From an uncultured Pelagibacteraceae bacterium (GTDB lineage: Bacteria > Pseudomonadota > Alphaproteobacteria > Pelagibacterales > Pelagibacteraceae), in the NCBI GenBank assembly GCA_902569785.1, contig CACFVO010000001.1, positions 179,971 to 220,815 on the forward strand: a stretch of DNA of 40,845 nt. The letters are read 5' to 3'. Positions 8,739-35,429 of the stretch are shown piece after piece. Made by a program: the position numbers and the translations under genes. Under the pieces are notes generated by a model that had not been told where the DNA came from, searched no databases, and saw only the letters and a program-made list of their open reading frames with translations. Position 1 is the first letter of the stretch. Every line of letters starts with the position of its first letter.

Positions 8739-9629
8739 ATGTCTAATAGTAGGAAAAAAATTTTAGTAACAGGTGGCGCAGGATTTGTTGGAACAAACTT
8801 AATTAAATATTTTCTCAAAAAAACAAAGTTTCATATAGTCAGTTTAGATAACTACTCATCTGGACTTAAAAAAAATCATATTAAAAGCAATAGAGTTAAA
8901 TACATAAAAGGCCATACAAAAAATATTGTAGATTTAATCAAACATCCTAACAATATTCATTCAGTTTTTCATTTTGGTGAATTTGCAAGAATTTATCAAA
9001 GTTTTCTAAAAATGAATGCTTGTGTCGAGTCTAACTTTGTTGGTTCTAACGCTGTGTTTAATTTTTGTCTAAAAAACAAAATTAAACTTATTTACTCTGC
9101 CACATCAGCTTCATTGGGCAATAAAGGAAAAGATAAAAATTTATCCCCTTATGCTTTTTCTAAAGCCATAAATCTCGAACAACTAGAAAATTTTAAAAAA
9201 TATTTTAAATTTAAATATGAGGTCATATATTTTTACAATGTTTATGGACCTCATCAAATATCTAGAGGAGCTATGTCAACAGTAATTGGTATTTTTGAAG
9301 ATCATTATTTAAGAAAAAGACCTCTGCCCGTAGTTAAACCTGGAACACAAAAAAGAAGATTTACACATATAGATGATACAATCAAAATGTGCTACGTAGC
9401 TTGGAAAAAAAAGCTAAGTAGACATTATATAATTGCTAATACCAAATCATTCACAATAAATGAAGTAGCTAAAATGTTTAAATCAAATATTAGATATTTA
9501 CCTAAAAGAGATGGGGAAAGGTATTCCTCTGCTCTAGTAAATAAAAATCTTTCTAATACAATTTACAAATATTACGGAAGAATAAGTTTAAAAGATTATA
9601 TTAGAGATTTTATTAAACAGCACTCTTAA
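8739..9629 (+). CDS. NAD-dependent epimerase/dehydratase (extended SDR)
   Basis: A 296-residue extended short-chain dehydrogenase of the GalE/WcaG group acting on nucleotide sugars. It has the complete glycine motif TGGAGFVG (11-18), the serine block IYSATSASLG (118-127), the catalytic YAFSK (Tyr138, Lys142), and the YNVYGPHQ and RRFTHIDD blocks typical of UDP-hexose epimerases. The ATG at 8739 is preferred to the GTG at 8733. It follows GT2 by 31 bases. Its TAA stop and the TAA of apt on the other strand share the tetranucleotide TTAA at 9626-9629. Substrate not decidable. Confidence 0.87.
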   Translation: MSNSRKKILVTGGAGFVGTNLIKYFLKKTKFHIVSLDNYSSGLKKNHIKSNRVKYIKGHTKNIVDLIKHPNNIHSVFHFGEFARIYQSFLKMNACVESNFVGSNAVFNFCLKNKIKLIYSATSASLGNKGKDKNLSPYAFSKAINLEQLENFKKYFKFKYEVIYFYNVYGPHQISRGAMSTVIGIFEDHYLRKRPLPVVKPGTQKRRFTHIDDTIKMCYVAWKKKLSRHYIIANTKSFTINEVAKMFKSNIRYLPKRDGERYSSALVNKNLSNTIYKYYGRISLKDYIRDFIKQHS

Positions 9630-10153
9630 TGACCTGGAAATTCAATTAAACAATCAGTATTATAGCCTTTTTTCTTAAGAAGATTATTACCTGGTAAATC
9701 AAATAAATTAATTACAAAAATAAATCCTGCAACTGTACCACCTGAAATTTCTATTAGTTTTGCTGCTGCCTCTGCCGTGCCTCCTGTTGCAATCAAATCA
9801 TCAATAACTAATATCTTTTCTCCTTTCGAAATAGAGTCTTTGTGCACTTCTATAGTAGCTTCTCCATATTCAAGCTTAAAATCAACAGAGTGAGTTTCGG
9901 CTGGGAGTTTATTTTTTTTCCTAAGTAAAATAAATGGTTTTTTTAAAGCATAGGATACTGTTGATGCAAAAACAAAACCTCTGGACTCTATTGCTGAAAC
10001 TTTATCAAAGTCCAATTTTTTCGATAATTCTATTATCTTGTCATTTGTGTATTTAAAGGCTTCAGGGTTTTTAATTAGAGTAGTGATATCTCTGAATAAA
10101 ATGCCTTTTTTAGGATAGTCCGGAATAGACCTTATATGTTTTTTTAAATCCAT
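9626..10153 (-). CDS. apt: Adenine phosphoribosyltransferase
   Basis: Salvages adenine to AMP using PRPP. From the ATG at 10153 (MDLKKHIRSIPDYPKKG) the protein has 175 residues, the usual length; a TTG four codons upstream is a less likely start. Family marks are the FRDITTL block, the IESRGF loop and the PRPP-binding VIDDLIATGGTA (116-127). It diverges from mtnP with 40 bases between starts. MtnP releases adenine from methylthioadenosine, so this neighbour is the logical next step. The pairing supports a shared regulatory region but I see no clear operator in the gap. Confidence 0.96.
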   Translation of the reverse strand: MDLKKHIRSIPDYPKKGILFRDITTLIKNPEAFKYTNDKIIELSKKLDFDKVSAIESRGFVFASTVSYALKKPFILLRKKNKLPAETHSVDFKLEYGEATIEVHKDSISKGEKILVIDDLIATGGTAEAAAKLIEISGGTVAGFIFVINLFDLPGNNLLKKKGYNTDCLIEFPGH

Positions 10154-10193
10154 ATTTAGCTTCAAGTTCTAACAAAAAAGCATTAATAATAAA

Positions 10194-11072
10194 ATGATGA
10201 AAAAAAGGAAGCTAGGGATAATTGGTGGTAGCGGTCTATACAAAATAGAAGGTTTTGAAAAGATTAATTGGAAAAAAATTAACACTTCCTGGGGAAATCC
10301 GTCTGATAAAATTTTAATTGCAAAATTTAATAAGGAGGAAATATATTTTATTCCACGACATTCTAGAGGGCACAAGATCAATCCAACTAATATAAATTTT
10401 AGAGCAAATATAGATGCTATGAAACAACTAGGAGTAACCGATATCGTTTCGGTTTCAGCAGTTGGTTCTTTGAAAGAAGATTTAAATCCAGGAAAATTTG
10501 TAATAGTAGATCAATTTATAGATAGAACTTTTTCAAGAGCAAAAACTTTTTTTGATGATGAAATTGTGGCACATGTTTCTATGGCAAAACCGACTAGTCC
10601 CGGTTTAGCTAAATGCTGTGAGTCGGCTTTAAAAAAATTAAATATCAATCATCAACTTGGAGGGACTTATGTTGTTATGGAAGGCCCTCAATTTTCCACG
10701 TTGGCAGAGTCTAATCTTTATAGATCATGGAAAGCAGATGTAATTGGAATGACAAATATGCCTGAAGCAAAATTAGCTAGAGAGGCGGAAATTAGATACT
10801 GCACAGTAGCTATGGTAACAGACTACGATTGTTGGCACCCAGGTCATGATGAAGTCGATGTAAGTGTTGTAATTAAAACATTAACGAAAAATGCGTCTAA
10901 TGCTCAAAATATGATTAAAGAAATTATAAAAACTTTTAAAGATTATTCAATTGATAGTGATCCAGCTAACAATTGTTTAGATGTAGCAATTATTACCGAT
11001 CCAAAATTAAGAACTAAAAAGACAATAAAAAAATTAAAACATATTGCAGGGAGAGTTCTTAATAAAAAATAA
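10194..11072 (+). CDS. mtnP: S-methyl-5'-thioadenosine phosphorylase
   Basis: Phosphorolysis of MTA to adenine and 5-methylthioribose-1-phosphate. 292 residues with the MTAP marks GIIGGSGLY, IPRHSRGHKINPTNINFRAN (phosphate/ribose region), VSAVGSLKE, VMEGPQFST and VTDYDCWH. The last motif and the SAVGSL sequence separate it from purine nucleoside phosphorylases. First gene of the plus-strand run mtnP, SGNH hydrolase, mtnA, class II aldolase, speDE and nitrilase, whose members overlap or nearly touch. Spermidine synthase later in the run makes MTA, so substrate supply is encoded in the same unit. Confidence 0.95.
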   Translation: MMKKRKLGIIGGSGLYKIEGFEKINWKKINTSWGNPSDKILIAKFNKEEIYFIPRHSRGHKINPTNINFRANIDAMKQLGVTDIVSVSAVGSLKEDLNPGKFVIVDQFIDRTFSRAKTFFDDEIVAHVSMAKPTSPGLAKCCESALKKLNINHQLGGTYVVMEGPQFSTLAESNLYRSWKADVIGMTNMPEAKLAREAEIRYCTVAMVTDYDCWHPGHDEVDVSVVIKTLTKNASNAQNMIKEIIKTFKDYSIDSDPANNCLDVAIITDPKLRTKKTIKKLKHIAGRVLNKK

Positions 11073-12154
11073 TGAAAAGAATATTTTTCTATTTTCTTTC
11101 AATATTTATTTTTTTATTTTTCATTTTAACAGTAGATTTTTTAGCTAGTAATACAATTTTAAGTTATAAAAATTGCTTTAAGTATGAAGAATTTTATTAT
11201 GAATTAAAAAAAAATTGTGAAGGAAAATACAGATTTAAAAAGTCTTTTCCGGTGGTTCAAACAATCACAGATGAAATGGGTTTAAGAATAGGTAAAAAAA
11301 GTTTAACTAAAAAAGAAAACAAAAAAAACATCTTCCTTTTTGGAGACTCTTTCACTTACGGGGTTGGAATAGAATTTGAAAAAACATATGCTGGATTAAT
11401 AGAGAAAGAATTTAGTGATTATAATGTCTATAATTTCGGAGTAGGCTCATATAGCCCTTCAGTTCATCTTTATAAATTGAAAAAAACTCTTGAAAAAGGC
11501 ATATTTCCAGAGAAGATCTTATTGTTTTTAGATTTTACTGATCTAATAGATGAAGCATCAAGATGGCAATATAACGATCAATCTGGGGAAATCCAATTAC
11601 GAAGTAATTACTTGTATCAAAATTCAAAAAAAAAAGAAAAGTTTGTAAAAAGAAATTTTAAAATATTAAATAATATTTCATCTTATATAAATTTTCATAT
11701 TAGAGCTTTAAGAGAAAATGTGAATATTAAGATATTCAATCAAAGAAAAATTAAAACAAGCATCCAAGGAAGTTTTACATATAAGGATTCTAACGCATTA
11801 GACCCAAGATTTTGGAAAGATGACTATTTCTCTATAGGAAAGCAAAATTTAAAAAAAAGACTGATTCAAATAGCAGATATTTCAAAAAAGAATGGTATTG
11901 AGTTTTATCTAATAATATATCCATGGGCTGAAACCTTAGAATTTGGCCAAGACAAGTTCAGTTGGTCAAACTATGCTAAAAAAATATGTTCTAATGAAAA
12001 TTGCAGATTAATTGATACAATACCTGATTTTTTAGTTTATAAAAATCAGAATTTAAATTGGTCAACCGAGCTCTATTTTCTTAATGATGAACATTTTAAT
12101 GAAAATGGAGCAAATCTTTTATACACAACAGTTATTAAAAATTTAAAAAAATGA
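11072..12154 (+). CDS. Membrane-anchored SGNH/GDSL hydrolase-like protein
   Basis: 360 residues with an N-terminal hydrophobic segment (about 4-24) that is a signal anchor, then an SGNH fold: FLFGDSFTYG with nucleophile Ser93 (block I), a NFGVGSYSP block resembling the Gly-containing block II, and LNDEHFNENG near residues 337-346 carrying the Asp-x-His dyad (Asp339, His341). Similar proteins act as esterases or acetyl transferases on surface glycans. It overlaps mtnP by one base and mtnA by four, so it is embedded in the MTA salvage operon although it has no evident role there. Substrate unknown. Its C-terminal domain would face the periplasm. Confidence 0.75.
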   Translation: MKRIFFYFLSIFIFLFFILTVDFLASNTILSYKNCFKYEEFYYELKKNCEGKYRFKKSFPVVQTITDEMGLRIGKKSLTKKENKKNIFLFGDSFTYGVGIEFEKTYAGLIEKEFSDYNVYNFGVGSYSPSVHLYKLKKTLEKGIFPEKILLFLDFTDLIDEASRWQYNDQSGEIQLRSNYLYQNSKKKEKFVKRNFKILNNISSYINFHIRALRENVNIKIFNQRKIKTSIQGSFTYKDSNALDPRFWKDDYFSIGKQNLKKRLIQIADISKKNGIEFYLIIYPWAETLEFGQDKFSWSNYAKKICSNENCRLIDTIPDFLVYKNQNLNWSTELYFLNDEHFNENGANLLYTTVIKNLKK

Positions 12155-13221
12155 AGATAAATTCAAAAAATTATAGAACTATTTGGTTTGAAAATAATTT
12201 AGTTAAAATAATAGATCAAACTAAACTACCACATAAATTTATAATAAAAGATTTAAAAACTGTTAAAGATACAGTAAATGCCATTCAAAGCATGGAAGTC
12301 AGAGGCGCTCCTTTAATTGGAGCTACCGCTGCTTATGGATTGGTTTTATCTATTCTTGAGAAAAATGATCAATCTTTTTTAAAAAAATCTAGTGATGATC
12401 TAATAGCTTCCAGGCCTACAGCCATTAATTTGAAATGGGCAGTAGATAGAATGATGAAAAAACTATCAGGCATAAATAGTAATGAAAATTTAAAAATAGC
12501 CCTAGAAGAAGCAAAAGCAATAGTAGAAGAGGACGTTAATTTTTGTAAAAATATAGGTTTAAATGGACTTAAAATAATTGAAGAAATAGCTAACAAAAAA
12601 AAAGATACAGTAAATATTCTAACTCATTGCAACGCTGGATGGCTTGCAACAATCGACTGGGGTACAGCTACCTCTCCAATTTATCAAGCACATCAGAAAG
12701 GTATTAAGGTACATGTTTGGGTGGATGAAACTAGACCAAGAAATCAAGGTGCTAATTTAACATCTTATGAGTTAAATGAAGAGGGAATTTCTAATACAAT
12801 TATTACTGACAATGCGGGTGGAATTTTAATGCAAAGAAGACAAGTAGATATGTGCATTGTTGGAACAGATAGAACCTTATCTAATGGCGATGTTTGTAAT
12901 AAAATTGGAACTTATCTGAAAGCTTTATCAGCAAAAGACAATAATGTTCCATTTTATGTTGCTCTACCTAGCTCTACAATTGACTGGAGCATTAAAGATC
13001 ACAAGCAAATTCCTATTGAAGAGAGAAACCCAGAAGAATTATCTCATGTTGAAGGAGTTGATGAAAATAATGAAATTAAAAAGGTGAGAATTTACCCACA
13101 AAAAAGTAAGTCACTTAACCTAGCCTTTGATGTAACACCCGCTAAACTGGTAACAGGATTAATTACAGAAAAAGGAATTTGTGAAGCATCGGAAAATGGA
13201 TTGAAAGGATTATTTAAGTGA
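12151..13221 (+). CDS. mtnA: Methylthioribose-1-phosphate isomerase
   Basis: Isomerises 5-methylthioribose-1-phosphate to 5-methylthioribulose-1-phosphate. 356 residues with MEVRGAPLIGATAAYG (48-63), the active Cys160 in THCNAGWLATIDWGTA, VWVDETRPRNQGA (189-201) and the active Asp240 in VGTDRTLSNGDVCNKIGTY. Cys160 and Asp240 fall at the same positions as in the characterised Bacillus enzyme. The related eIF2B-like and ribose-1,5-bisphosphate isomerase families lack this exact combination. ATGA overlap with the SGNH gene and GTGA overlap with the aldolase gene indicate tight translational coupling. Confidence 0.96.
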   Translation: MKINSKNYRTIWFENNLVKIIDQTKLPHKFIIKDLKTVKDTVNAIQSMEVRGAPLIGATAAYGLVLSILEKNDQSFLKKSSDDLIASRPTAINLKWAVDRMMKKLSGINSNENLKIALEEAKAIVEEDVNFCKNIGLNGLKIIEEIANKKKDTVNILTHCNAGWLATIDWGTATSPIYQAHQKGIKVHVWVDETRPRNQGANLTSYELNEEGISNTIITDNAGGILMQRRQVDMCIVGTDRTLSNGDVCNKIGTYLKALSAKDNNVPFYVALPSSTIDWSIKDHKQIPIEERNPEELSHVEGVDENNEIKKVRIYPQKSKSLNLAFDVTPAKLVTGLITEKGICEASENGLKGLFK

Positions 13222-13862
13222 GCAAGTTCAAATCCGAAGTAATAAAATATTCAAAAAAATTAAATATTACTAATTTATCAGCTTTAAGATCTGGAAATAT
13301 CTCTGTAAGAGCAAAAGAAAAAGGAGTGAATGGTTTTTATATAACTCCATCGGGAAGAAAGTATTCATCTTTAAAACCTAAAGACATTATTTTTGTATCG
13401 ATTAAAGGTGTGTATGACAAAAAAAAGGGTAAACCATCTTCAGAATGGAGATTTCATCAAGATATATATGTGAATAAAAAAGAAGCTAAAGCTATAGTTC
13501 ATGCACATTCAACTTGTGCAACAGCTATCTCAACTCATCAAAAAGATATTCCAGCCTTTCACTACATGGTTGCAGTTGCTGGAGGAGAAGACATAAAATG
13601 CACTAAATACGCTACATTTGGGACTAAAAACTTATCAAGAAATATTATCAAAGCACTCAAAAATAGATCAGCTTGTCTAATAGCAAATCACGGTCAAGTT
13701 GCTTTTGGAAATAATTTAGAGGAAACTTTTGAGCTTGCTCAAGAGATCGAAAATATTTGCCATCAATACATTAATGCCCTAAGAATTGGAATACCTAAGA
13801 TTCTTTCAAAAAAAGAAATGAAAATAGTCTTAGGAAAATTTAAAAATTATAAAAAAAGGTAG
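13218..13862 (+). CDS. Class II aldolase, candidate 5-methylthioribulose-1-phosphate aldolase
   Basis: 214-residue class II aldolase/adducin domain of the fuculose-phosphate aldolase branch. The SGNIS phosphate site (25-29), TPSGRKYSSL, PSSEWRFH with catalytic Glu76, the zinc ligands His95 and His97 in VHAHST and His158 in IANHGQ are all present. Starts with GTG inside the end of mtnA (GTGA overlap). In organisms with the DHAP shunt (MtnP or MtnK, MtnA, Ald2) a protein of this type splits methylthioribulose-1-phosphate into DHAP and methylthioacetaldehyde. MtnB dehydratase belongs to the same superfamily and is the alternative, but the PSSEWRFH and AFHYMVAVAGG blocks fit the fuculose aldolase side better, and no mtnC, mtnD or mtnE follows. 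Confidence 0.8.
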   Translation: MSKFKSEVIKYSKKLNITNLSALRSGNISVRAKEKGVNGFYITPSGRKYSSLKPKDIIFVSIKGVYDKKKGKPSSEWRFHQDIYVNKKEAKAIVHAHSTCATAISTHQKDIPAFHYMVAVAGGEDIKCTKYATFGTKNLSRNIIKALKNRSACLIANHGQVAFGNNLEETFELAQEIENICHQYINALRIGIPKILSKKEMKIVLGKFKNYKKR

Positions 13863-13868
13863 TTTTTA

Positions 13869-14909
13869 ATGATAAAAGTAGGTGAGCATATCACTATTGA
13901 TTTTTTAGGTGTTAAAAAAGATTATCCTTCGGAATTCTATGAAAAAGTAATCTATAAAATTGCCAAAGCCGCAAAAGTTGAAATTTTAAATGTTTCTTCA
14001 CATAAATTCGAACCTCAGGGTTTTACATTAGTCGCTTTACTAGCAGAAAGTCATTTTAGCTTTCATACTTTTCCAGAGAGAGGCGTCATTAGTTTTGATT
14101 TCTTTACATGCGGTAAAGTAAATCCAAAAGTTGCCCTTAAAATACTTAGAAAAGAAATTGACCACACTAGAGTAGTTACCCATGCATTTGATAGAAGTAG
14201 TGTAGGTTTATATGACGATATTTATAGTACTTCAGGGCAAAAGAAATTTTATGTAGTTAAAGATGTTTTAGAAAAATTTACTTCTAAAGTCGGTCAGTTT
14301 GTAGAAATAATGGATCTAGAGGAATTTGGACATGCTTTATTTATTGATCATGAAATACAAGTTGCAGAAAAAGACGAGAAAATTTATAGCTCAAATTTTT
14401 TTAAATCTAGTTATGATTTAAGTAAAAAAAACAATAACGTTGCTATTATTGGAGGGGGCGATGGCGGGGTAGCCCGTGCCTGTTTAGAAAACAATTCTAA
14501 TTATATAGATTGGTTTGAACTAGACCCAGAGATAGTAGATGTATGTTACCGTCACTTACCAAAGGTTTGTTCTAAAGTTAAAAAAAGCAACAAAATAAAA
14601 ACTTTTTGGGGAGATGCATTTAAAAGCATCAAAGAAATAGAAGACTCAAAATATGATAAAATTTTTGTAGATTTAAACGATGATCAATATTGCATCGATC
14701 TAGCTAGAAAAAATATGAAAGGTCTTAAGAGAATTCTTAAAAAAGGCGGTGTTATCACCGCACAGGTAGGCAGCAAAGATAAAAAACCTAAGCAGGTTGA
14801 AAATTGGTGCAAAGTACTTGATAAAAGTTTTGGAAATGTGAAAATTTCTGGTGCGTATGTACCTAGTTTTGACTGTAATTGGAATTTTGCTTCATCTATA
14901 ATGAAGTAA
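13869..14909 (+). CDS. speDE: Fused S-adenosylmethionine decarboxylase-spermidine synthase
   Basis: Two enzymes in one 346-residue chain. Residues 1 to about 115 are a class 1b AdoMet decarboxylase proenzyme: the self-cleavage site is Glu60-Ser61 (LLAESHFSFHTFPE), with His66 and Cys81 (DFFTCG) at the spacing known from the Thermotoga enzyme, so Ser61 should become the pyruvoyl group. Residues from about 125 on are an aminopropyltransferase: FGHALFIDHEIQVAEKDE, AIIGGGDGGVAR (193-203) and an acidic FVDLNDD block (266-272) in place of the usual DxxDPxGP. The family YHE after the DE pair is YSS here. It would decarboxylate AdoMet and use the product to aminopropylate a diamine, releasing MTA for MtnP upstream. 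AAGG ribosome-binding sequence about 9 bases before the ATG. Confidence 0.9.
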   Translation: MIKVGEHITIDFLGVKKDYPSEFYEKVIYKIAKAAKVEILNVSSHKFEPQGFTLVALLAESHFSFHTFPERGVISFDFFTCGKVNPKVALKILRKEIDHTRVVTHAFDRSSVGLYDDIYSTSGQKKFYVVKDVLEKFTSKVGQFVEIMDLEEFGHALFIDHEIQVAEKDEKIYSSNFFKSSYDLSKKNNNVAIIGGGDGGVARACLENNSNYIDWFELDPEIVDVCYRHLPKVCSKVKKSNKIKTFWGDAFKSIKEIEDSKYDKIFVDLNDDQYCIDLARKNMKGLKRILKKGGVITAQVGSKDKKPKQVENWCKVLDKSFGNVKISGAYVPSFDCNWNFASSIMK

Positions 14910-15706
14910 TGTTTCGAGTTTCATGTATACAGCTTTGTTCAAGTGACAACGTTGAACATAATTTAAATAGAACAAAACAACTTATAATTAAGGCTGTTAA
15001 GCAAAAGTCACATTTTATTTTAACTCCTGAAGTTTCATCAAAAATATCTTTAAATAAAAAAAAACTTTTAAACACAGCAACTTCTATGGATAAAGACTTT
15101 TACTTAAATGGAATTAGAGTTTTAGCAAAAAAATATAAAAAATGGATTTTAATTGGTTCATTGATTCTTAAGGTAAGCAAAAACAGATTAGTTAATAGAT
15201 CTATTTTAATTTCGCCAAATGGAAAAATTAAGTGTTACTACGATAAAATACATATGTACGATGCAATATTAAGTAAAAAAGAAAAATATTTTGAGTCAAA
15301 ACTATTTCAATCAGGCAATAAAATTAAAATTACCAAATTGCCTTGGGGCAAGATAGGTCTTTCGATATGTTATGATTTGAGATTTCCTGGAATGTATAAA
15401 AAAATGTCAAAAAGGGGAGCAATATTTATAAGCATTCCTTCTGCATTTACTGAAACAACAGGCAGGAAACATTGGCATACTCTTTTAAAAGCTAGAGCTA
15501 TTGAAAATTTTTCATATGTTTTTGCACCGGGTCAAGCTGGAAAACATTGCAACGGTAGAAAAACTTATGGTCATTCATTAATAGTATCACCAGATGGGAA
15601 AATTTTAAAAGAACTAGGAAAAAAAGAAGGTGTTATTACTGCAACAATTAATCCTAAATTAGTTAAAAATCTTAGAAGAACAATTCCAAGTGTCAATTTT
15701 GATTAG
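14909..15706 (+). CDS. Nitrilase-superfamily amidase (Nit1/Nit2-like)
   Basis: Carbon-nitrogen hydrolase of 265 residues with the complete catalytic triad Glu41 (LTPEVS), Lys113 (YDKIHMYD) and Cys154 (SICYDLRFPG). AFTETTGRKHWHTLLKARAIE is the family substrate-pocket block. The ATG at 14909 overlaps the TAA of speDE by one base and is preferred to an upstream in-frame start at 14879 that would lie inside speDE. Close relatives hydrolyse deaminated glutathione or other omega-amides; in some bacteria a related amidase (MtnU) accompanies methionine salvage. Which amide is used here cannot be told. Stop codon shared with the converging DUF6165 gene within TTAG. Confidence 0.88.
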   Translation: MFRVSCIQLCSSDNVEHNLNRTKQLIIKAVKQKSHFILTPEVSSKISLNKKKLLNTATSMDKDFYLNGIRVLAKKYKKWILIGSLILKVSKNRLVNRSILISPNGKIKCYYDKIHMYDAILSKKEKYFESKLFQSGNKIKITKLPWGKIGLSICYDLRFPGMYKKMSKRGAIFISIPSAFTETTGRKHWHTLLKARAIENFSYVFAPGQAGKHCNGRKTYGHSLIVSPDGKILKELGKKEGVITATINPKLVKNLRRTIPSVNFD

Positions 15707-28954: not shown

Positions 28955-29704
28955 ATGAACATGGTTGTCAAGCACTATGATGCTAAATTCAAAAAAAAAT
29001 TCAATCCTAAAGTCGGTTTAATAACATTGTCGACAGACCAAACTATTGAAAATGATTTTCAAAATATTTGTAGTAATTTACCAGTAGATATTTTTATAAA
29101 TCGTATTCATAATAAAAATCCTTTAACAAAAGAAAATCTTTTAAAAATGGCAGAAGATTTAGCTTCTGTAACAAAAAAAATACTTCCTGATGAAAAATTA
29201 AATACGATCGCATATGGTTGCACCTCTGGAACTATAGCTATTGGAGAAGATAGTGTAAAAGAAAAGATATTATCAGTTAAACCTGGTAGTTATGTTACAA
29301 CTCCAGTAACTTCTGCAATTAAAGCTTTTAAACTAATGAATGTAAAAAAAATTGCTTTACTTACTCCATATCCAGATGAGATAAACAAAACAATTCAAGA
29401 ATATTTTACCAAAAAGAATATTGAAGTTTTATCATTTGCTAGTTTAAATTTAAATTTAGACTCGGAGTTTGCTAATGTTGACCCAAATTATATTTTAGAA
29501 ATATCATCAAAGTTAGAAACAAAAAATGCAGACGCATTATTTATATCTTGTACAGCTTTACCAGTTCTGAATATTCTTGATAAATTAGAACTAACAATAA
29601 AAAGACCGGTATTTTCAAGTAATCAAACTTTAATTTGGGATACGATAAGATCAATTGGGTATAAGTCTCCGATAAAAGGATATGGAAAACTTTTAGAAAA
29701 TTAA
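28955..29704 (+). CDS. EutA-like Asp/Glu racemase-fold protein
   Basis: 249-residue member of the Asp/Glu racemase, maleate isomerase and arylmalonate decarboxylase superfamily. Both active cysteines are there: Cys89 in IAYGCTSGT and Cys199 in FISCTALP. GLITLSTDQTIENDF at the start and RPVFSSNQTLIWD near the end match proteins annotated EutA in ectoine-degradation clusters, where EutA sits beside the hydrolase EutD. Here the next gene is a DoeA/EutD-like hydrolase with no gap. The reaction of EutA is not firmly known; an isomerase or racemase of a small acid is expected. 59 bases separate it from nrdB, probably a new transcription unit. Confidence 0.8.
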   Translation: MNMVVKHYDAKFKKKFNPKVGLITLSTDQTIENDFQNICSNLPVDIFINRIHNKNPLTKENLLKMAEDLASVTKKILPDEKLNTIAYGCTSGTIAIGEDSVKEKILSVKPGSYVTTPVTSAIKAFKLMNVKKIALLTPYPDEINKTIQEYFTKKNIEVLSFASLNLNLDSEFANVDPNYILEISSKLETKNADALFISCTALPVLNILDKLELTIKRPVFSSNQTLIWDTIRSIGYKSPIKGYGKLLEN

Positions 29705-30871
29705 ATGCTTTTTGAAAAACAAGAATACGAAGATCGCTTAAAAAAAGTAAAGATCAATATGCAAAAAAAAGGTATTGATCTATTAGTTTCCCATGACCCA
29801 GCAAACATGAACTATCTAACTGGTTATGATGCTTGGTCTTTCTATTATGCTCAATGTGTTTTAGTTCATATAAATGAAGACGAGCCTATTTGTTTTGTAA
29901 GAGCACAAGATGTAGGAGGCGCGTATATAAAGACATATCTGAAAGATAAAAATATTATTGAGTATGATGAAAAGTACATCCACACTTGGCCACTTCATCC
30001 TTATCAATATTTAGTGGAAATAATCAAAAAAAGAAAATGGGATAATCTTAATATAGGTTTAGAAATGGACAGCCATTACTTCACTGCATTTTGTTACGAA
30101 ACAATAAAAAAAGGGTTACCAAACGCAAAACTTAAGGATGCTGAACGATTAGTGAATTGGGTAAGAGTTGTCAAATCAAATGCAGAAATTAAATTAATGG
30201 AGTCAGCAGCTCGTATAGTTGAGAGTGGAATGAAAATGGCTTTTAAAAGTATCAATCCCGGTGTAAGACAATGTGATGCCGTGGCAGATATTCAAAAGGC
30301 TTTATTTAACGGCACAAAAGAATTTGGGGGAGACTACCCAAGTATTGCAACTTTGTTACCGTCAGGTAAGGGAACTTCAGCATCCCATTTAACATCAACA
30401 GATGAGAAATTTGTTTCAGGCGAGGCAACAATTATTGAAATTGCTGGTGCATACAAAAGATACCATTGTCCCATGGCTCGTACGGTTTTATTAGGTAAAA
30501 AAGATCAAAGGAAGATTGATACAATGAAAGCCACTAACGAAGCATTAGACGCAGGCATTGCAGTAGCTAAATCTGGCAATACCGTTGATCATATAGCTCA
30601 AAAATTTTGGGGAATTTTAGACAAATATAAGATTAAAAAAGACTCTAGAACAGGATATTCAATAGGGATTGGCTACCCACCAGATTGGGGAGAGCAAACT
30701 TTTAATATATCAAAAGGCGATAAAACTATTTTACAACCTAACGTTACTTTTCATATGATTGCAGTTATGCAATTTGGTGATTGGGGTGTAGAAGCCAGTG
30801 AAGCGGTGAGAGTAACAGAAACAGGTTCAGAATTATTTTGCAATTTATCTAGAGAATTACATATTAAATAA
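29705..30871 (+). CDS. doeA: DoeA/EutD-like M24-fold hydrolase without metal ligands (ectoine hydrolase family)
   Basis: 388 residues with a creatinase-like N-terminal domain and an M24 pita-bread C-terminal domain. The metal ligands of aminopeptidase P are missing: the canonical D-x-G ... D-I-T-R-T region reads EIAGAYKRYHCPMART (245-260), and the last block has DWGVEASEAV instead of a metal-binding E-x-G. This is the pattern of ectoine hydrolase, which is metal independent; KDSRTGYSIGIGYPPDWGE (312-330) and HLTSTDEKF also match that family as I recall it. Expected reaction: opening the ring of ectoine or a similar cyclic amidine. Its ATG follows the EutA-like stop without a spacer. Annotation as a peptidase would be wrong on residues; the exact substrate is inferred. 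Confidence 0.78.
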   Translation: MLFEKQEYEDRLKKVKINMQKKGIDLLVSHDPANMNYLTGYDAWSFYYAQCVLVHINEDEPICFVRAQDVGGAYIKTYLKDKNIIEYDEKYIHTWPLHPYQYLVEIIKKRKWDNLNIGLEMDSHYFTAFCYETIKKGLPNAKLKDAERLVNWVRVVKSNAEIKLMESAARIVESGMKMAFKSINPGVRQCDAVADIQKALFNGTKEFGGDYPSIATLLPSGKGTSASHLTSTDEKFVSGEATIIEIAGAYKRYHCPMARTVLLGKKDQRKIDTMKATNEALDAGIAVAKSGNTVDHIAQKFWGILDKYKIKKDSRTGYSIGIGYPPDWGEQTFNISKGDKTILQPNVTFHMIAVMQFGDWGVEASEAVRVTETGSELFCNLSRELHIK

Positions 30872-30918
30872 TAAAAACCTTGAAATAAATTTTCTTAAAT
30901 GCTTTAAATAATCATTAT

Positions 30919-32013
30919 ATGACGTCTTCAAAAAGCTTTGTAAAATTTGATAAAGTAGACAAAAGTTATGATGGTAAAGTTTTAGTCGTTAAAGACTTGA
31001 ATCTTGATATCAACGAAGGTGAATTTATTACAATGCTGGGACCATCTGGCTCAGGAAAAACAACTTGCTTAATGATGTTAGCAGGTTTTGAAACACCAAC
31101 TAACGGTGAAATTTATTTAGACTCAAAACCTATTTCTAGAATTCCTCCACACAAAAGAGGAATAGGAATGGTTTTTCAAAATTACGCTTTATTTCCTCAT
31201 CTGACAGTTTATGAAAATTTAGCTTTTCCTTTAAAAGTTAGAAAGCTCTTAAAAGATGATATTGATAAAAAAGTTGATAAAGCTTTATCTATGGTTTCTT
31301 TATCTGGATTTGAAAAAAGAATGCCTAATCAACTTTCAGGCGGGCAACAGCAAAGAGTTGCTGTTGCAAGATCTCTAGTATTTGACCCTCAATTAGTTTT
31401 AATGGATGAACCATTAGGAGCTTTAGATAAAAATTTAAGAGAAAGTATGCAGTATGAGATTAAACACATTCATGAAAATATTGGTGTAACTGTAGTTTAT
31501 GTTACTCATGATCAAAGCGAAGCTCTTACTATGTCTAGTAGAATTGCAGTTTTTAATGAAGGAAAAGTGCAACAACTATCTAGTCCAGATAAATTATACG
31601 AAGAACCTGTAAATTCATTTGTTGCAGGGTTTATAGGAGAGAATAATACCTTTTCTGGACAAGTTACAGATATCTCAGGGGGTAAATGTAAAGTTAAATT
31701 AGATACTGGCGCTGAAATAATTTCTAATCCTATAAGGGTAAAAACAAAAGGAGAAAAAACTAAAGTTTCTTTAAGACCTGAGAGGGCGATAATAGATCCT
31801 GAAGAAAAAATGGATAATAAATATAAAGGAAAAATAGAGGAAGTTATTTACCATGGAGATCATGCAAGAGTTAGATTAAATTTGTTGGGCAACAAAGAAT
31901 TTATTTTAAAAGTTCCAAACAGCTCTGCTAGAATGGACATAAAACCAGGTAATGATATTAAAGTTGGCTGGAACAGCCATGATGCTAGGGCTTTAGACCC
32001 GAAATCAATCTGA
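30919..32013 (+). CDS. ABC importer ATPase, PotA-type
   Basis: 364 residues: nucleotide-binding domain with Walker A GPSGSGKTT (41-49), Q-loop Gln87, signature LSGGQQQR (139-146), Walker B LVLMDEP (159-165) and the H-loop His in YVTHDQSEALT. A C-terminal TOBE-type region (about 245-364) is present. It is 47 bases after the DoeA-like gene and begins the transport part of the run. PotA-type ATPases serve polyamine and related small cationic or zwitterionic solutes. The stop codon lies in the loop of a small perfect hairpin. Confidence 0.92.
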   Translation: MTSSKSFVKFDKVDKSYDGKVLVVKDLNLDINEGEFITMLGPSGSGKTTCLMMLAGFETPTNGEIYLDSKPISRIPPHKRGIGMVFQNYALFPHLTVYENLAFPLKVRKLLKDDIDKKVDKALSMVSLSGFEKRMPNQLSGGQQQRVAVARSLVFDPQLVLMDEPLGALDKNLRESMQYEIKHIHENIGVTVVYVTHDQSEALTMSSRIAVFNEGKVQQLSSPDKLYEEPVNSFVAGFIGENNTFSGQVTDISGGKCKVKLDTGAEIISNPIRVKTKGEKTKVSLRPERAIIDPEEKMDNKYKGKIEEVIYHGDHARVRLNLLGNKEFILKVPNSSARMDIKPGNDIKVGWNSHDARALDPKSI

Positions 32014-32021
32014 GATTGATT
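32003..32021 (+). repeat. Inverted repeat with potA-type stop codon in its loop
   Basis: Perfect 8-base stem AATCAATC (32003-32010) and GATTGATT (32014-32021) with the stop codon TGA (32011-32013) as the loop. No U-run follows, so it is not a standard terminator; it may stabilise the ATPase transcript 3' end or be chance. Confidence 0.5.
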
Positions 32022-32068
32022 CATTCAAAAAATCCTAATTTTAAACAATAATTAGCTTAAATCAGAGG

Positions 32069-32097
32069 TTGACTTAATTTTTGTTAATTGTTGTAAT
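32069..32097 (+). promoter_or_regulatory. Candidate sigma-70 promoter of the binding-protein gene
   Basis: TTGACT (32069-32074) and TGTAAT (32092-32097) are 17 bases apart, each 5 of 6 to consensus. Start near 32104, about 28 bases before the ATG at 32132. This would let the binding protein be made in excess over the ATPase. Confidence 0.6.
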
Positions 32098-32105
32098 AAA
32101 AATTA

Positions 32106-32120
32106 TTAAACGTTTAAACG
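32106..32120 (+). promoter_or_regulatory. Palindrome in the 5' leader, candidate operator
   Basis: TTAAACGTTTAA (32106-32117) and CGTTTAAACG (32111-32120) are overlapping perfect palindromes. AAACGTTT is the core of many LacI/GalR-family operators (for example PurR). They lie between the predicted start site and the AAGGGG ribosome-binding sequence (32121-32126), a good position for repression by a bound protein. Confidence 0.4.
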
Positions 32121-32131
32121 AAGGGGAACAA

Positions 32132-33250
32132 ATGAGAAAATTAAGTAAACTGTTACTTACTTTAGTTTTTGCACTTTCAATTTCTTCAACTTCATATGCA
32201 GTTACAGTTGCATCATGGGGTGGAGCTTACACTGAAAGTCAAAAATTAGGTTATGGTGATCCATCTGCAAAAAAATTAGGCATACCTATTAACTGGGTAG
32301 ACTATTCAGGCGGATTATCTGAAGTTAAAGCTCAAAAAGCAGCAGGAAAAATTACTTGGGACATAATGGACGTTTTCGCTATGGACACTATTAATGGATG
32401 TGACGAAGGTTTATTTGTTAAATTTGATTTTGACAAAGACTTTCCACCAGCTCCAGATGGAACTAAAGCGAGCAAAGATTTCTTTACGTCAATGCCAAGT
32501 GATTGTGCTGTAGGAAATATTTTATATTCTTGGACATATGCTTACCATGATGCAAAAATTGGTAGCAAAAAACCAAAAACTATAAAAGATTTCTTTGACA
32601 CTAAAACATGGCCAGGTAAAAGAGGTGTTTACAAAAGTGCTATGCATAATCTAGAGATGGCATTAGCAGCTTCTGGAACTAAGCCAGGTAAAGGTGGAAA
32701 GAAAATTTACAAACAACTTTCAAAGGAAAAAGGTCTTAAAAAAGCAATGGATAAGATGGAAGCTCTTTGCAAGGACCCTAACGGCGGATGCGTATTTTGG
32801 TCAGCTGGTGCTAAACCACCAGAACTACTTATGCAGGGTGAAGTTGTAATGGCAACAGGTTGGAATGGTAGATTCTTTAATGCAGAAGTTGGAGAAGGCG
32901 CACCATTAAAACAAGTTTGGGATGCTCAAGGTTTAGATTACCAATACATGGTAGTTGTAAAAGGTGGACCAAATGAAGCTGATGCTATGAAAGCAATTGC
33001 AGAAATGACTAGCACAGAAGGTTTAGCTGGTTCAGCAAAATATATTGCTTACGCACCTTGGAGAAAATCTTCTCTAAAAATTATTGAAGCAGGTGAGCCT
33101 TGGTATAAAGATGGTAAGACAAACATGATGTCTCAAATGCCAACTCATCCAAACAATACAAAAAGCTATATCCTGATTGATGCATTATTCTGGGCTGACA
33201 ACGGTACAGAAATCGGCGAAAAATGGGAAGCTATGAAATCTGGTCTTTAA
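32132..33250 (+). CDS. Periplasmic substrate-binding protein of the COG0687 (PotD-like) type
   Basis: 372 residues. The ATG at 32132 has AAGGGG six bases upstream, so it is preferred to a TTG at 32081. Signal peptide MRKLSKLLLTLVFALSISST followed by SYA and cleavage near Ala23. The mature protein begins VTVASWGGAYTESQKLGYGD, the pattern of class D/PotD-like solute-binding proteins, with WVDYSGGLSEVKAQKAAGK and a later FWSAGAKPPELLMQGEVVMATGWNGR pocket. It has its own promoter and is followed by a strong hairpin, consistent with expression above the membrane parts. Substrate unknown: polyamine by family name, but the adjacent DoeA- and EutA-like genes point to a cyclic or zwitterionic amino compound. 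Confidence 0.88.
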   Translation: MRKLSKLLLTLVFALSISSTSYAVTVASWGGAYTESQKLGYGDPSAKKLGIPINWVDYSGGLSEVKAQKAAGKITWDIMDVFAMDTINGCDEGLFVKFDFDKDFPPAPDGTKASKDFFTSMPSDCAVGNILYSWTYAYHDAKIGSKKPKTIKDFFDTKTWPGKRGVYKSAMHNLEMALAASGTKPGKGGKKIYKQLSKEKGLKKAMDKMEALCKDPNGGCVFWSAGAKPPELLMQGEVVMATGWNGRFFNAEVGEGAPLKQVWDAQGLDYQYMVVVKGGPNEADAMKAIAEMTSTEGLAGSAKYIAYAPWRKSSLKIIEAGEPWYKDGKTNMMSQMPTHPNNTKSYILIDALFWADNGTEIGEKWEAMKSGL

Positions 33251-33285
33251 TTAAGTTTTAAAGATTTGGATGATATAATATATTT

Positions 33286-33314
33286 AGGGCGGTTATTAAC
33301 TAACCGCCCTTTTT
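33286..33314 (+). terminator. Intrinsic terminator between binding-protein and permease genes
   Basis: Perfect 10-base stem AGGGCGGTTA (33286-33295) with TAACCGCCCT (33301-33310), loop TTAAC, then TTTTTATTT. The U-run ends 4 bases before the ATG of the permease gene. It would stop a large part of transcription from the binding-protein promoter, with read-through to the permeases. The GC-rich stem stands out in a roughly 30 percent GC region. Confidence 0.85.
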
Positions 33315-33318
33315 ATTT

Positions 33319-34572
33319 ATGAGCAGTGAAACACAACAAATTTTAACAACTGATGGAATACCTCTAGAGGTAAGTCTTAAAAAAGTTGAAAGAAGAAATA
33401 AATTAAAAGCTTTTCTTCTTGTTGCCCCCTTATTACTTTTTTTATTAATTGTATATATTTCTCCAATAGTTGGGATGCTTTTTAATAGCATTGATGATCG
33501 AATGGTAACTAATGCACTTCCAAAAACATTCAAAGCAATGGAAGATTGGGATGGTAAAGAACTTCCATCAGAAAAAGTATTCGAAGCTTTTTATTTTGAT
33601 TTTCAAAAATTAATTGAAGAAGAGAGAGAAGGAAAATTATCAACTCAACTTAATTACACCAAAAATGGTTTTAAAAGTATCATTAAAAAATTAAGACGAA
33701 AATCAAAATCTTTTGAAGAAGGAAATTATAAAGAACAAATTATGTCTGTTCATGAAAGATGGGCAGATGTTGAATATTGGAGAGCAATTCAAAGACGTGC
33801 GCCAGCTTATTCATATTCTAAATATTTAAAGGGCGTCGACATGTATCAAAATGAGGATGGAAAAATAGTTCAAGTTGAAGAAGATCGAAGAATTTATAAG
33901 AAATTATGGGTTAGAACTTTAAAAATAGCTTTTTATGTCACCCTATTTTGTTTTTTGATGGCTTACCCAATTGCTCATTTGCTAGCGACTCTTCCTATGA
34001 AATATAGCAATTTGTTAATGATTTGTGTTCTTTTACCTTTCTGGACTTCATTGCTTGTCAGAACTGCAAGTTGGATGATTTTACTTCAACAGCAAGGAGT
34101 AGTTAATGATTTTTTAGTTTGGATTGGTCTTGTAGCAGACGATGAAAGATTGGTGATGATGTACAACGAAACAGGAACTTATATTGCTATGACTCAAATT
34201 TTGTTACCATTTATGGTTTTACCTCTTTATAGCGTAATGAAAACTATTTCACCAAGTTTAGTTAGAGCAGGTAAATCTTTGGGAGGAACACCATTTATAA
34301 CTTTTTGGAAGGTATATTTTCCATTAACTATACCAGGAATAGGTGCTGGTTCTCTTTTAGTTTTTATTCTTGCAATAGGATACTACATTACTCCAGAATT
34401 AGTTGGAGGAGCTTCAGGAACCCTTATAAGCAATCAAATTGCTTATCACATGAAATATACTTTAGATTGGAGTTTTGCATCGGCAATGGGGCTAATGCTA
34501 CTAGTTGGCGTGCTGGCTGTTTACTGGGTCTACAATAAACTAGTAGGAATTGATAATATAAAATTAGGATAA
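33319..34572 (+). CDS. ABC importer permease, PotB-type, with large extracytoplasmic insert
   Basis: 417 residues instead of about 280-310. TM1 is at about 30-52; then a charged region of about 138 residues (about 60-198) before TM2, which would face the periplasm; then five more helices. The EAA loop is VRAGKSLGGTPFITFWKVYFPLT, near residue 316. The insert carries many Lys, Glu and Trp residues (for example WADVEYWRAIQRRAPAYSYS). Start at 33319, just after the terminator hairpin, so ribosome access may depend on that structure. Partner of the PotC-type permease two bases downstream. Confidence 0.9.
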   Translation: MSSETQQILTTDGIPLEVSLKKVERRNKLKAFLLVAPLLLFLLIVYISPIVGMLFNSIDDRMVTNALPKTFKAMEDWDGKELPSEKVFEAFYFDFQKLIEEEREGKLSTQLNYTKNGFKSIIKKLRRKSKSFEEGNYKEQIMSVHERWADVEYWRAIQRRAPAYSYSKYLKGVDMYQNEDGKIVQVEEDRRIYKKLWVRTLKIAFYVTLFCFLMAYPIAHLLATLPMKYSNLLMICVLLPFWTSLLVRTASWMILLQQQGVVNDFLVWIGLVADDERLVMMYNETGTYIAMTQILLPFMVLPLYSVMKTISPSLVRAGKSLGGTPFITFWKVYFPLTIPGIGAGSLLVFILAIGYYITPELVGGASGTLISNQIAYHMKYTLDWSFASAMGLMLLVGVLAVYWVYNKLVGIDNIKLG

Positions 34573-34574
34573 AT

Positions 34575-35429
34575 ATGGCTTTACCAAAATATACAGAACC
34601 ACATTATAGAGTATGGCATTATTTTTATCTTTTTATATGCGGTTGTGTTTTTTTCTTTTTAATTGCACCTTTGTTTGTAATTTTTCCATTATCATTTAAT
34701 GCAGAGGAATTTTTAGTAATAACAGATGGAATGAAAAGATTAGATCCAGATGCTTTCTCTTTGAGATGGTATAAGGACATGGTTTATGGAACAAAAAATC
34801 CTTGGGGATTAGCTGCAAAAAATAGTTTTTTTATAGCAATATTTGCAACAATTGGAGCTGTTATTCTTGGAACAGTTGCAGCCCTGGGATTAAGTAGCAG
34901 ATATATGCCTTACAAAGGAATAATAATGGCTACTTTAATTTCTCCTATGATTGTTCCATTAATTATTTCAGGAGTAGCAATTTTCTTTTTTATGGCCAAA
35001 GCAGGTTTAGCTGCTACACACACAGGAATAGTTTTAGCACATATAATATTGGGAACTCCATTCGTAGTAATTACAGTTACTGCTACATTATCAGGATTTG
35101 ATCATAGCGTAACTAGAGCTGCAGCAAGTCTTGGAAGCAACCCTGTAAACACTTTTATGAAAATAACGCTACCGCTTATTTTGCCTGGAGTTATTTCTGG
35201 AGCTTTATTTGCATTTGTTACATCTTTTGACGAAGTTGTGATTGTGTTATTCTTAGCTGGTTTAGATAATACAACTATTCCAATTCAAATGTGGACTGGG
35301 TTGAGAGAACAGCTAAGTCCAACAATATTATCTGTAGCGACATGTTTAATTCTTCTATCAACTTTAGTCTTGGTTGCTGCAGAACTTTTAAGAAGAAGGT
35401 CTGAAAGAATAAGAGGAATTAACAGATAA
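34575..35429 (+). CDS. ABC importer permease, PotC-type
   Basis: 284 residues, six membrane segments, usual length. The EAA loop reads VTRAAASLGSNPVNTFMKIT followed by LPLILPGV. Near the end FVTSFDEVVIVLFLAG is the typical PotC segment. Two bases after the PotB-type stop, so coupled. It is the last gene of the plus-strand unit and ends 2 bases before the converging cyclophilin gene. Partner of the long permease and the PotA-type ATPase in one importer. Confidence 0.92.
   Translation: MALPKYTEPHYRVWHYFYLFICGCVFFFLIAPLFVIFPLSFNAEEFLVITDGMKRLDPDAFSLRWYKDMVYGTKNPWGLAAKNSFFIAIFATIGAVILGTVAALGLSSRYMPYKGIIMATLISPMIVPLIISGVAIFFFMAKAGLAATHTGIVLAHIILGTPFVVITVTATLSGFDHSVTRAAASLGSNPVNTFMKITLPLILPGVISGALFAFVTSFDEVVIVLFLAGLDNTTIPIQMWTGLREQLSPTILSVATCLILLSTLVLVAAELLRRRSERIRGINR

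Follow-up and report, generated by a model that had tools for sequence, protein, structure and literature searches.

Genes at the locus

The window, i.e., the whole stretch of 40,845 nucleotides analysed here, encodes a fusion of AdoMet decarboxylase (SpeD) and aminopropyltransferase (SpeE) in a single reading frame. The fusion gene, its two domains and its neighbours are given below, with model scores vs. the respective cut-offs in brackets.

9626-10165, minus strand: apt, adenine phosphoribosyltransferase, which recycles adenine (NF002634 216.6 vs. 170; TIGR01090 200.2 vs. 185.85)
10194-11072, plus strand: mtnP, methylthioadenosine phosphorylase (NF006492 439.6 vs. 437; TIGR01694 309.1 vs. 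274.85)
11072-12154, plus strand: SGNH/GDSL-like gene (NF047474 38.5 vs. 300; Pfam matches below cut-off)
12151-13221, plus strand: mtnA, methylthioribose-1-phosphate isomerase (NF004326 461.8 vs. 271; TIGR00512 428.5 vs. 279)
13218-13862, plus strand: class II aldolase, probably Ald2-like, i.e., a methylthioribulose-1-phosphate aldolase (PF00596 165 vs. 22.2)
13869-14909, plus strand: speD-speE fusion, AdoMet decarboxylase-aminopropyltransferase, 346 aa (open reading frame, translation, Pfam)
13869-14216, plus strand, within the fusion: class 1b AdoMet decarboxylase domain, about residues 1-116 (TIGR03330 above cut-off)
14238-14906, plus strand, within the fusion: aminopropyltransferase (APT) domain, about residues 124-346 (phmmer matches to solved spermidine synthases; alignment with E. 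coli SpeE; conservation)
14879-15706, plus strand: nitrilase-family amidase, overlapping the 3' end of the fusion gene (PF00795 164.3 vs. 23.2)

Named relatives of the locus (best 80 of 584) are uncultured Pelagibacteraceae or Pelagibacterales, including Ca. Pelagibacter ubique HIMB058 and SCGC AAA795-E07, which places the window in SAR11. Promoter-like sites number 26 vs. 32.0 expected, terminator-like sites 4 vs. 1.6 expected.

Domains of the fusion protein

The reading frame starts with ATG and encodes 346 residues, of which Pfam assigns 7-109 to AdoMet_dc and 171-339 to Spermine_synth. The N-terminal half scores above the curated cut-offs of both TIGR03330 (Bacillus-type AdoMetDC; 93.3 vs. 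75.65 bits) and PF02675 (AdoMet_dc; 93.8 vs. 25). Glu60-Ser61, His66 and Cys81 are all there, i.e., the pyruvoyl-processing site is complete, as an earlier note on this DNA had claimed. By analogy with its family, the protein is predicted to cleave itself at Glu60/Ser61, giving the pyruvoyl group.

The C-terminal half passes PF01564 (Spermine_synth; 84.5 vs. 22.9) and matches solved spermidine synthases with a best phmmer E-value of 2.6e-17, but both NCBIfam equivalogs for SpeE are missed (TIGR00417 97.2 vs. 249.55; PRK00811 119.9 vs. 260). It is thus a divergent aminopropyltransferase that is not filed as canonical SpeE, which agrees with the earlier description of the protein as a SpeD-SpeE fusion with an altered APT domain. 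Its motifs read DEKIYSS (residues 169-175), GGGDGG (195-200; rightly noted before as kept), E217, GDAF (248-251) and VDLNDD (267-272, with D268-x-x-D271).

The proposed structure prediction of the 346-residue chain was run with AlphaFold2 on the window protein together with 15 of the 80 named relatives and gave a model too poor for use (mean pLDDT 50.7, pTM 0.41). A single scan of viral contigs with the fusion protein, which detects close relatives only, returned no pattern match.

Flagged residues and their conservation

Two departures from textbook spermidine synthases had been flagged, namely the lack of DxxDPxGP and of YHE, and both hold in part. In the alignments, D268 and D271 of VDLNDD occupy the D-x-x-D positions of solved spermidine synthases, which read D-x-x-E in the B. 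subtilis enzyme. This pair is kept, while the PxGP expected next is missing, leaving a gap of two residues when aligned to E. coli SpeE. Likewise, Tyr173 is retained and the His-Glu of YHE is replaced by Ser-Ser. Two further differences go beyond the earlier note: the PTY loop reads PSF (F334 in place of Tyr), and the C-terminus falls some 45-50 residues short of the E. coli and B. subtilis SpeE ends, a figure judged by eye as MAFFT scatters the last residues. Human spermidine synthase also lacks the His of YHE. According to passages of PMC11107197, the His position of motif 1, which we read as the His of YHE, is uninformative on function, and product choice is not reliably readable from sequence. 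D198, G200 and E217 match the spermine synthase pattern in these passages, where we take E217 to be motif 3 based on our E. coli SpeE alignment.

Conservation was counted on fusion sequences from the fetched loci. The 135 sequences, which include that of the window and in some cases share a genome, comprise 115 distinct ones; 112 of these are full-length (346 aa), and the three shorter ones (303, 322 and 328 aa) were not counted. This set leans to the window's own genus, i.e., 27 sequences come from four other genera and are 62-67% identical, while the rest are at least 85% identical. Invariant in all 112 are the pyruvoyl-site residues E60, S61, H66 and C81 as well as, in the APT domain, D169, E170, Y173, S174, GGGDGG (including D198), E217, GDAF (including D249), D268-L-N-D-D272 (including D271) and F334; residue 175 is Ser in 108/112. 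That is, the flagged motif residues are kept across five genera. The reading of them as peculiar to the window protein, or as a sign of lost activity, is not supported, given that they are invariant or nearly so in the family. Judged on these sequences, the odd-looking residues are a lineage-standard family trait and not a sign of new activity.

This conservation also bears on the idea that the APT domain is degenerate and the decarboxylase alone works. PxGP, the His-Glu of YHE, the PTY tyrosine and the C-terminal stretch are indeed missing relative to E. coli SpeE, and the APT half lies below the NCBIfam SpeE cut-offs, but the motif residues are conserved across the five genera and activity of relatives has been published (passages of PMC11107197). 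We regard such a degeneration as extremely improbable.

Two of the sampled genomes we take to be those of Ca. P. ubique HTCC1062 and Ca. Pelagibacter sp. HTCC7211. Identity between the window protein and their 346-aa fusions is 62.8% and 62.5%, respectively, and 61% for the APT half. Passages of PMC11107197 report the expression of the fusions of HTCC1062 (WP_011282223) and HTCC7211 (WP_008544956) in E. coli, where both produced spermidine in a speD-less strain and spermine/thermospermine in a speE-less one; norspermidine was formed by the Pelagibacter fusions from added 1,3-diaminopropane. As far as these passages go, the earlier suggestion of an altered diamine choice or activity is half borne out: the assayed relatives have a wide product range, whereas a loss of activity is at odds with their active fusions. 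The altered residues are thus standard in active enzymes of the lineage, an alignment outcome that the earlier note had itself named as speaking against its proposal, insofar as our strain identification is right. If it is wrong, this outcome is still supported by the invariance of the motifs in the sampled family. A false lead is thereby averted: residues at odds with the textbook pattern are normal for a lineage that abounds in the ocean and includes assayed enzymes.

Distribution of the fusion

The genomes in a first search for relatives came from the genus of the window and from a single other family. Within the genus, the fusion was matched in 28/37 genomes; the nine without a match in this search are all incomplete assemblies (57-84%). 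The stand-alone SpeD proteins of two genomes (G039, G050) were missed by this search and picked up by the family model instead. A 116-residue match in G006, considered as a split gene, was rejected as such, since it stops two bases short of a contig end (base 98,284 of 98,286).

In an even, order-wide sample, 63/117 genomes have a SpeD match. Fusion-length SpeD frames (308-364 aa) are found in 59 of the 64 genomes of the window's family; 30 of the family loci (L101-L130) were read and are all fusions, while the others among the 59 were mostly assigned by frame length. The other family contributes four SpeD matches in frames of 130-134 aa, i.e., stand-alone proteins. Five family genomes (G065, G090, G116, G122, G145; 94-99% complete) are without a SpeD match. 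Together, distribution and sequence identity suggest descent of the fusion inside the family.

Within a class-wide sample of 385 genomes, we examined ten places with frames of about 300 aa or more among the matches listed (G374 not included). SpeD and a canonical APT share one frame in L178 and L180, which are 24% and 27% identical to the window protein, and L181 holds a divergent SpeD-APT pair in one frame; the other seven places show separate frames, SpeD only, or are ambiguous. The 472-aa frame of L181, from an alphaproteobacterium, has MDLPDEQ for DxxDPxGP and GSSEG for GGGDG. It seems that the SpeD-SpeE fusion arose more than once. Separate fusion events are reportedly also the subject of Green et al. 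2011, going by its title.

Source of the diamine

The window holds no ornithine/arginine decarboxylase detectable by PF02784, in line with the earlier note: the genome's two matches to this family (ornithine/arginine/diaminopimelate decarboxylase) fall on contigs 3 and 13. The one genome match to the arginase/agmatinase family is on contig 3, where a run of genes (G000:C3) encodes a 392-aa decarboxylase, a 349-aa deoxyhypusine-synthase homologue (homospermidine-synthase homologue; NF002699 568.3 vs. 500) and a 293-aa agmatinase (TIGR01230 196 vs. 174.3). Homologues of the decarboxylase (61-100% identity) are present in 13/13 genomes tested; an agmatinase-family gene was not found in 14/37 relatives searched, several of which are incomplete. 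Passages of PMC9992855 describe a purified Pelagibacter decarboxylase of the same type that used arginine as substrate but neither ornithine nor lysine, the gene being clustered with arginase/agmatinase homologues. While the note had called the diamine source open, the arginine-type decarboxylase and agmatinase on contig 3 give it a likely answer elsewhere in the genome. On this gene content, putrescine most likely comes from arginine via agmatine, with uptake as a possible further source.

A second stretch of the window, 28955-35429, carries genes that are perhaps for ectoine or polyamine uptake and use. Here, genes for an EutA-like protein (TIGR02990 214.4 vs. 318) and an M24 peptidase precede those for an ABC transporter, whose ATPase is of PotA type (TIGR01187 371 vs. 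355.6); the EutA-like protein and the PotB- and PotC-like permeases of the transporter stay below their cut-offs.

The decarboxylase and agmatinase genes weigh on two alternatives. In the first, the APT domain would use a different acceptor, namely agmatine, cadaverine or 1,3-diaminopropane. With a decarboxylase of the arginine-acting type, agmatine is to be expected in the cell, and the assayed Pelagibacter fusions did, in the published passages, make norspermidine when fed 1,3-diaminopropane. Against this, the agmatinase gene lies two genes after the decarboxylase, and the flagged residues are shared with the fusions that we take to be the assayed ones, for which these passages report spermidine and spermine/thermospermine. 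We consider a shifted acceptor very improbable.

In the second, the N-terminal domain is a SpeD homologue turned pyruvoyl arginine/ornithine decarboxylase such that the fusion supplies its own diamine. Neofunctionalised SpeD homologues of this kind are known, from literature excerpts, in many bacteria, archaea and pelagiphages. The fusion is, however, the only SpeD match in the window's assembly (75.64% complete) and is joined to an APT domain that needs decarboxylated AdoMet; a separate decarboxylase is encoded in the genome, and spermidine is reported, in the PMC11107197 passages, from the assayed Pelagibacter fusions in a speD-less strain. Having a sole SpeD that is fused to an APT beside a separate decarboxylase, we rejected this assignment, the chances of which we rate as minute.

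Probable methylthioadenosine-disposal genes next to the fusion

Transfer of an aminopropyl group releases methylthioadenosine (MTA), for which passages of PMC5893883 describe a route by MtnP, MtnA and Ald2. The window holds a candidate for such a gene set (a putative DHAP shunt) upstream of the fusion, in which MtnP and MtnA score above equivalog cut-offs and the aldolase above its Pfam cut-off alone. The latter is below the cut-off of all 25 NCBIfam models shown (e.g., mtnB, 69.8 vs. 137.05), and its Ald2-like role is probable from its place after mtnP and mtnA. The downstream amidase is below the cut-off of the deaminated glutathione amidase model (211.3 vs. 500).

The arrangement recurs among the 80 named loci, which are close relatives rather than independent cases (best 80 of 584). 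MtnP, mtnA and the aldolase are upstream on the same strand in 67 of the 68 loci with at least 4.1 kb upstream (exception: L048), and in all 79 loci holding both matches, 9-15 bases separate the end of the aldolase match from the start of the fusion match. Apt is found in 72/80 loci and the nitrilase-family amidase in 76/80. The GDSL/SGNH-like gene at 11072-12154, which splits mtnP and mtnA in the window, is seen in 2/80 named relatives; it is not a conserved part of the cluster and may be a recent insertion.

Among the 64 family genomes of the order-wide sample, mtnP is present in 51 and mtnA in 52. Each of these carries the fusion, which 59 have in total, and neither gene occurs in the five fusion-less genomes (Fisher p = 0.00017 for mtnP vs. 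fusion, uncorrected for kinship). The aldolase has close matches (at least 64% identity) in 44 of the 59 fusion genomes and distant ones (26-33%) in three. In 48/51 genomes mtnP lies upstream of the fusion on the same strand within 7 kb; the remaining ones are at 11.5 and 13.0 kb or, in one case, on another contig. Eight fusion genomes lack mtnP. In three of them (G078, G106, G147) a contig end interrupts the region, as deduced for G106 from a cut mtnA and a short locus. The other five (G066, G073, G076, G100, G102) have, directly upstream of the fusion, a frame of 177-195 aa of the nucleoside phosphorylase/nucleosidase family (loci L185, L186, L187 and L188; G100 by coordinates alone). The two such frames that were scanned resemble MTA/SAH nucleosidases, yet are below curated cut-offs, and one compared with solved structures matches the same MTA/SAH nucleosidase enzymes.

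From this neighbourhood we infer a link of the fusion with the adjacent genes via MTA. Taken further, SAR11 might keep a polyamine-and-MTA unit, in which the MTA maker stays beside an MTA remover, be it mtnP-mtnA-aldolase or the short nucleosidase in the same spot, that pulls aminopropyl transfer forward. This extension we hold to be doubtful. Its probability is lowered by the aldolase being absent from more genomes than mtnP, and by mtnP occurring without a SpeD match in two genomes of the other family (G041, G119); the latter also weakens a strict link. The fusion-less family genome G065 carries a short nucleosidase-like frame, too, which weakens a strict link as well. Furthermore, mtnP is present in the genome taken for HTCC7211 and absent from that taken for HTCC1062. 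Passages of PMC8437039 present SAR11 SpeE as a fused broad-range enzyme that is proposed to run in reverse, too, i.e., to break down spermidine; such breakdown left signs in HTCC7211, but no clear ones in HTCC1062. That these signs come from the strain whose presumed genome has mtnP again speaks against a strict link.

If the pulling role is true, it bears on this proposed reverse reaction, which would need MTA as a substrate, and strain differences would be predicted by which MTA remover is present. A description of the fusion-mtn gene arrangement in SAR11 does not appear in the passages of PMC8437039, PMC11698098 and PMC6302742 considered here. The neighbourhood, which puts the enzyme beside the disposal of its own by-product in most sampled family genomes, is a modest lead that may be of use in probing whether SAR11 SpeE is reversible, as has been proposed.

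Proposed activity and comparison with known systems

We assign a probability of about 0.9 to the reading that the window protein is, as its sequence indicates, a SAR11 AdoMet decarboxylase-aminopropyltransferase fusion making spermidine. Its activity and product mix we infer from relatives, for which decarboxylase function as well as spermidine, spermine and thermospermine activity is published. The N-terminal domain would cut itself at Glu60-Ser61, form the pyruvoyl group and decarboxylate AdoMet. The C-terminal domain would then transfer the aminopropyl group of decarboxylated AdoMet to putrescine, giving spermidine and releasing MTA; a second aminopropyl group is probably added to spermidine to yield spermine or thermospermine. 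The putrescine probably derives from arginine via the arginine-decarboxylase homologue and the agmatinase on another contig. MTA is probably cleared by the upstream mtnP, mtnA and class II aldolase products, and the adenine would be recycled by apt.

Compared with stand-alone SpeE (E. coli, Bacillus subtilis) and class 1b SpeD, the window fusion retains GGGDG and the D-x-x-D position, and the same two activities are expected of it. In contrast to stand-alone SpeE, it is one chain and is without PxGP, the HE of YHE, the PTY tyrosine and the C-terminal stretch. The alphaproteobacterial fusions L178 and L180 share the order of SpeD followed by APT in one frame, but have canonical DSTDPxGP and YHE; they look like separate fusion events.

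The closest match is within the lineage itself. Domain order, length and motifs of the window fusion are those of other Pelagibacteraceae fusions. The fusions of the genomes taken for HTCC1062 and HTCC7211, at about 63% identity, have the same domain order and show LYSS, GGGDGG, VDLNDDQFC and PSFDCSW, of which the YSS, GGGDGG, DLNDDQ and PSFDC motifs are those of the window's; the comparison extends to the named WP records via our identification of these genomes. The window enzyme belongs with the characterised SAR11 fusions, i.e., it is ordinary and already explained.
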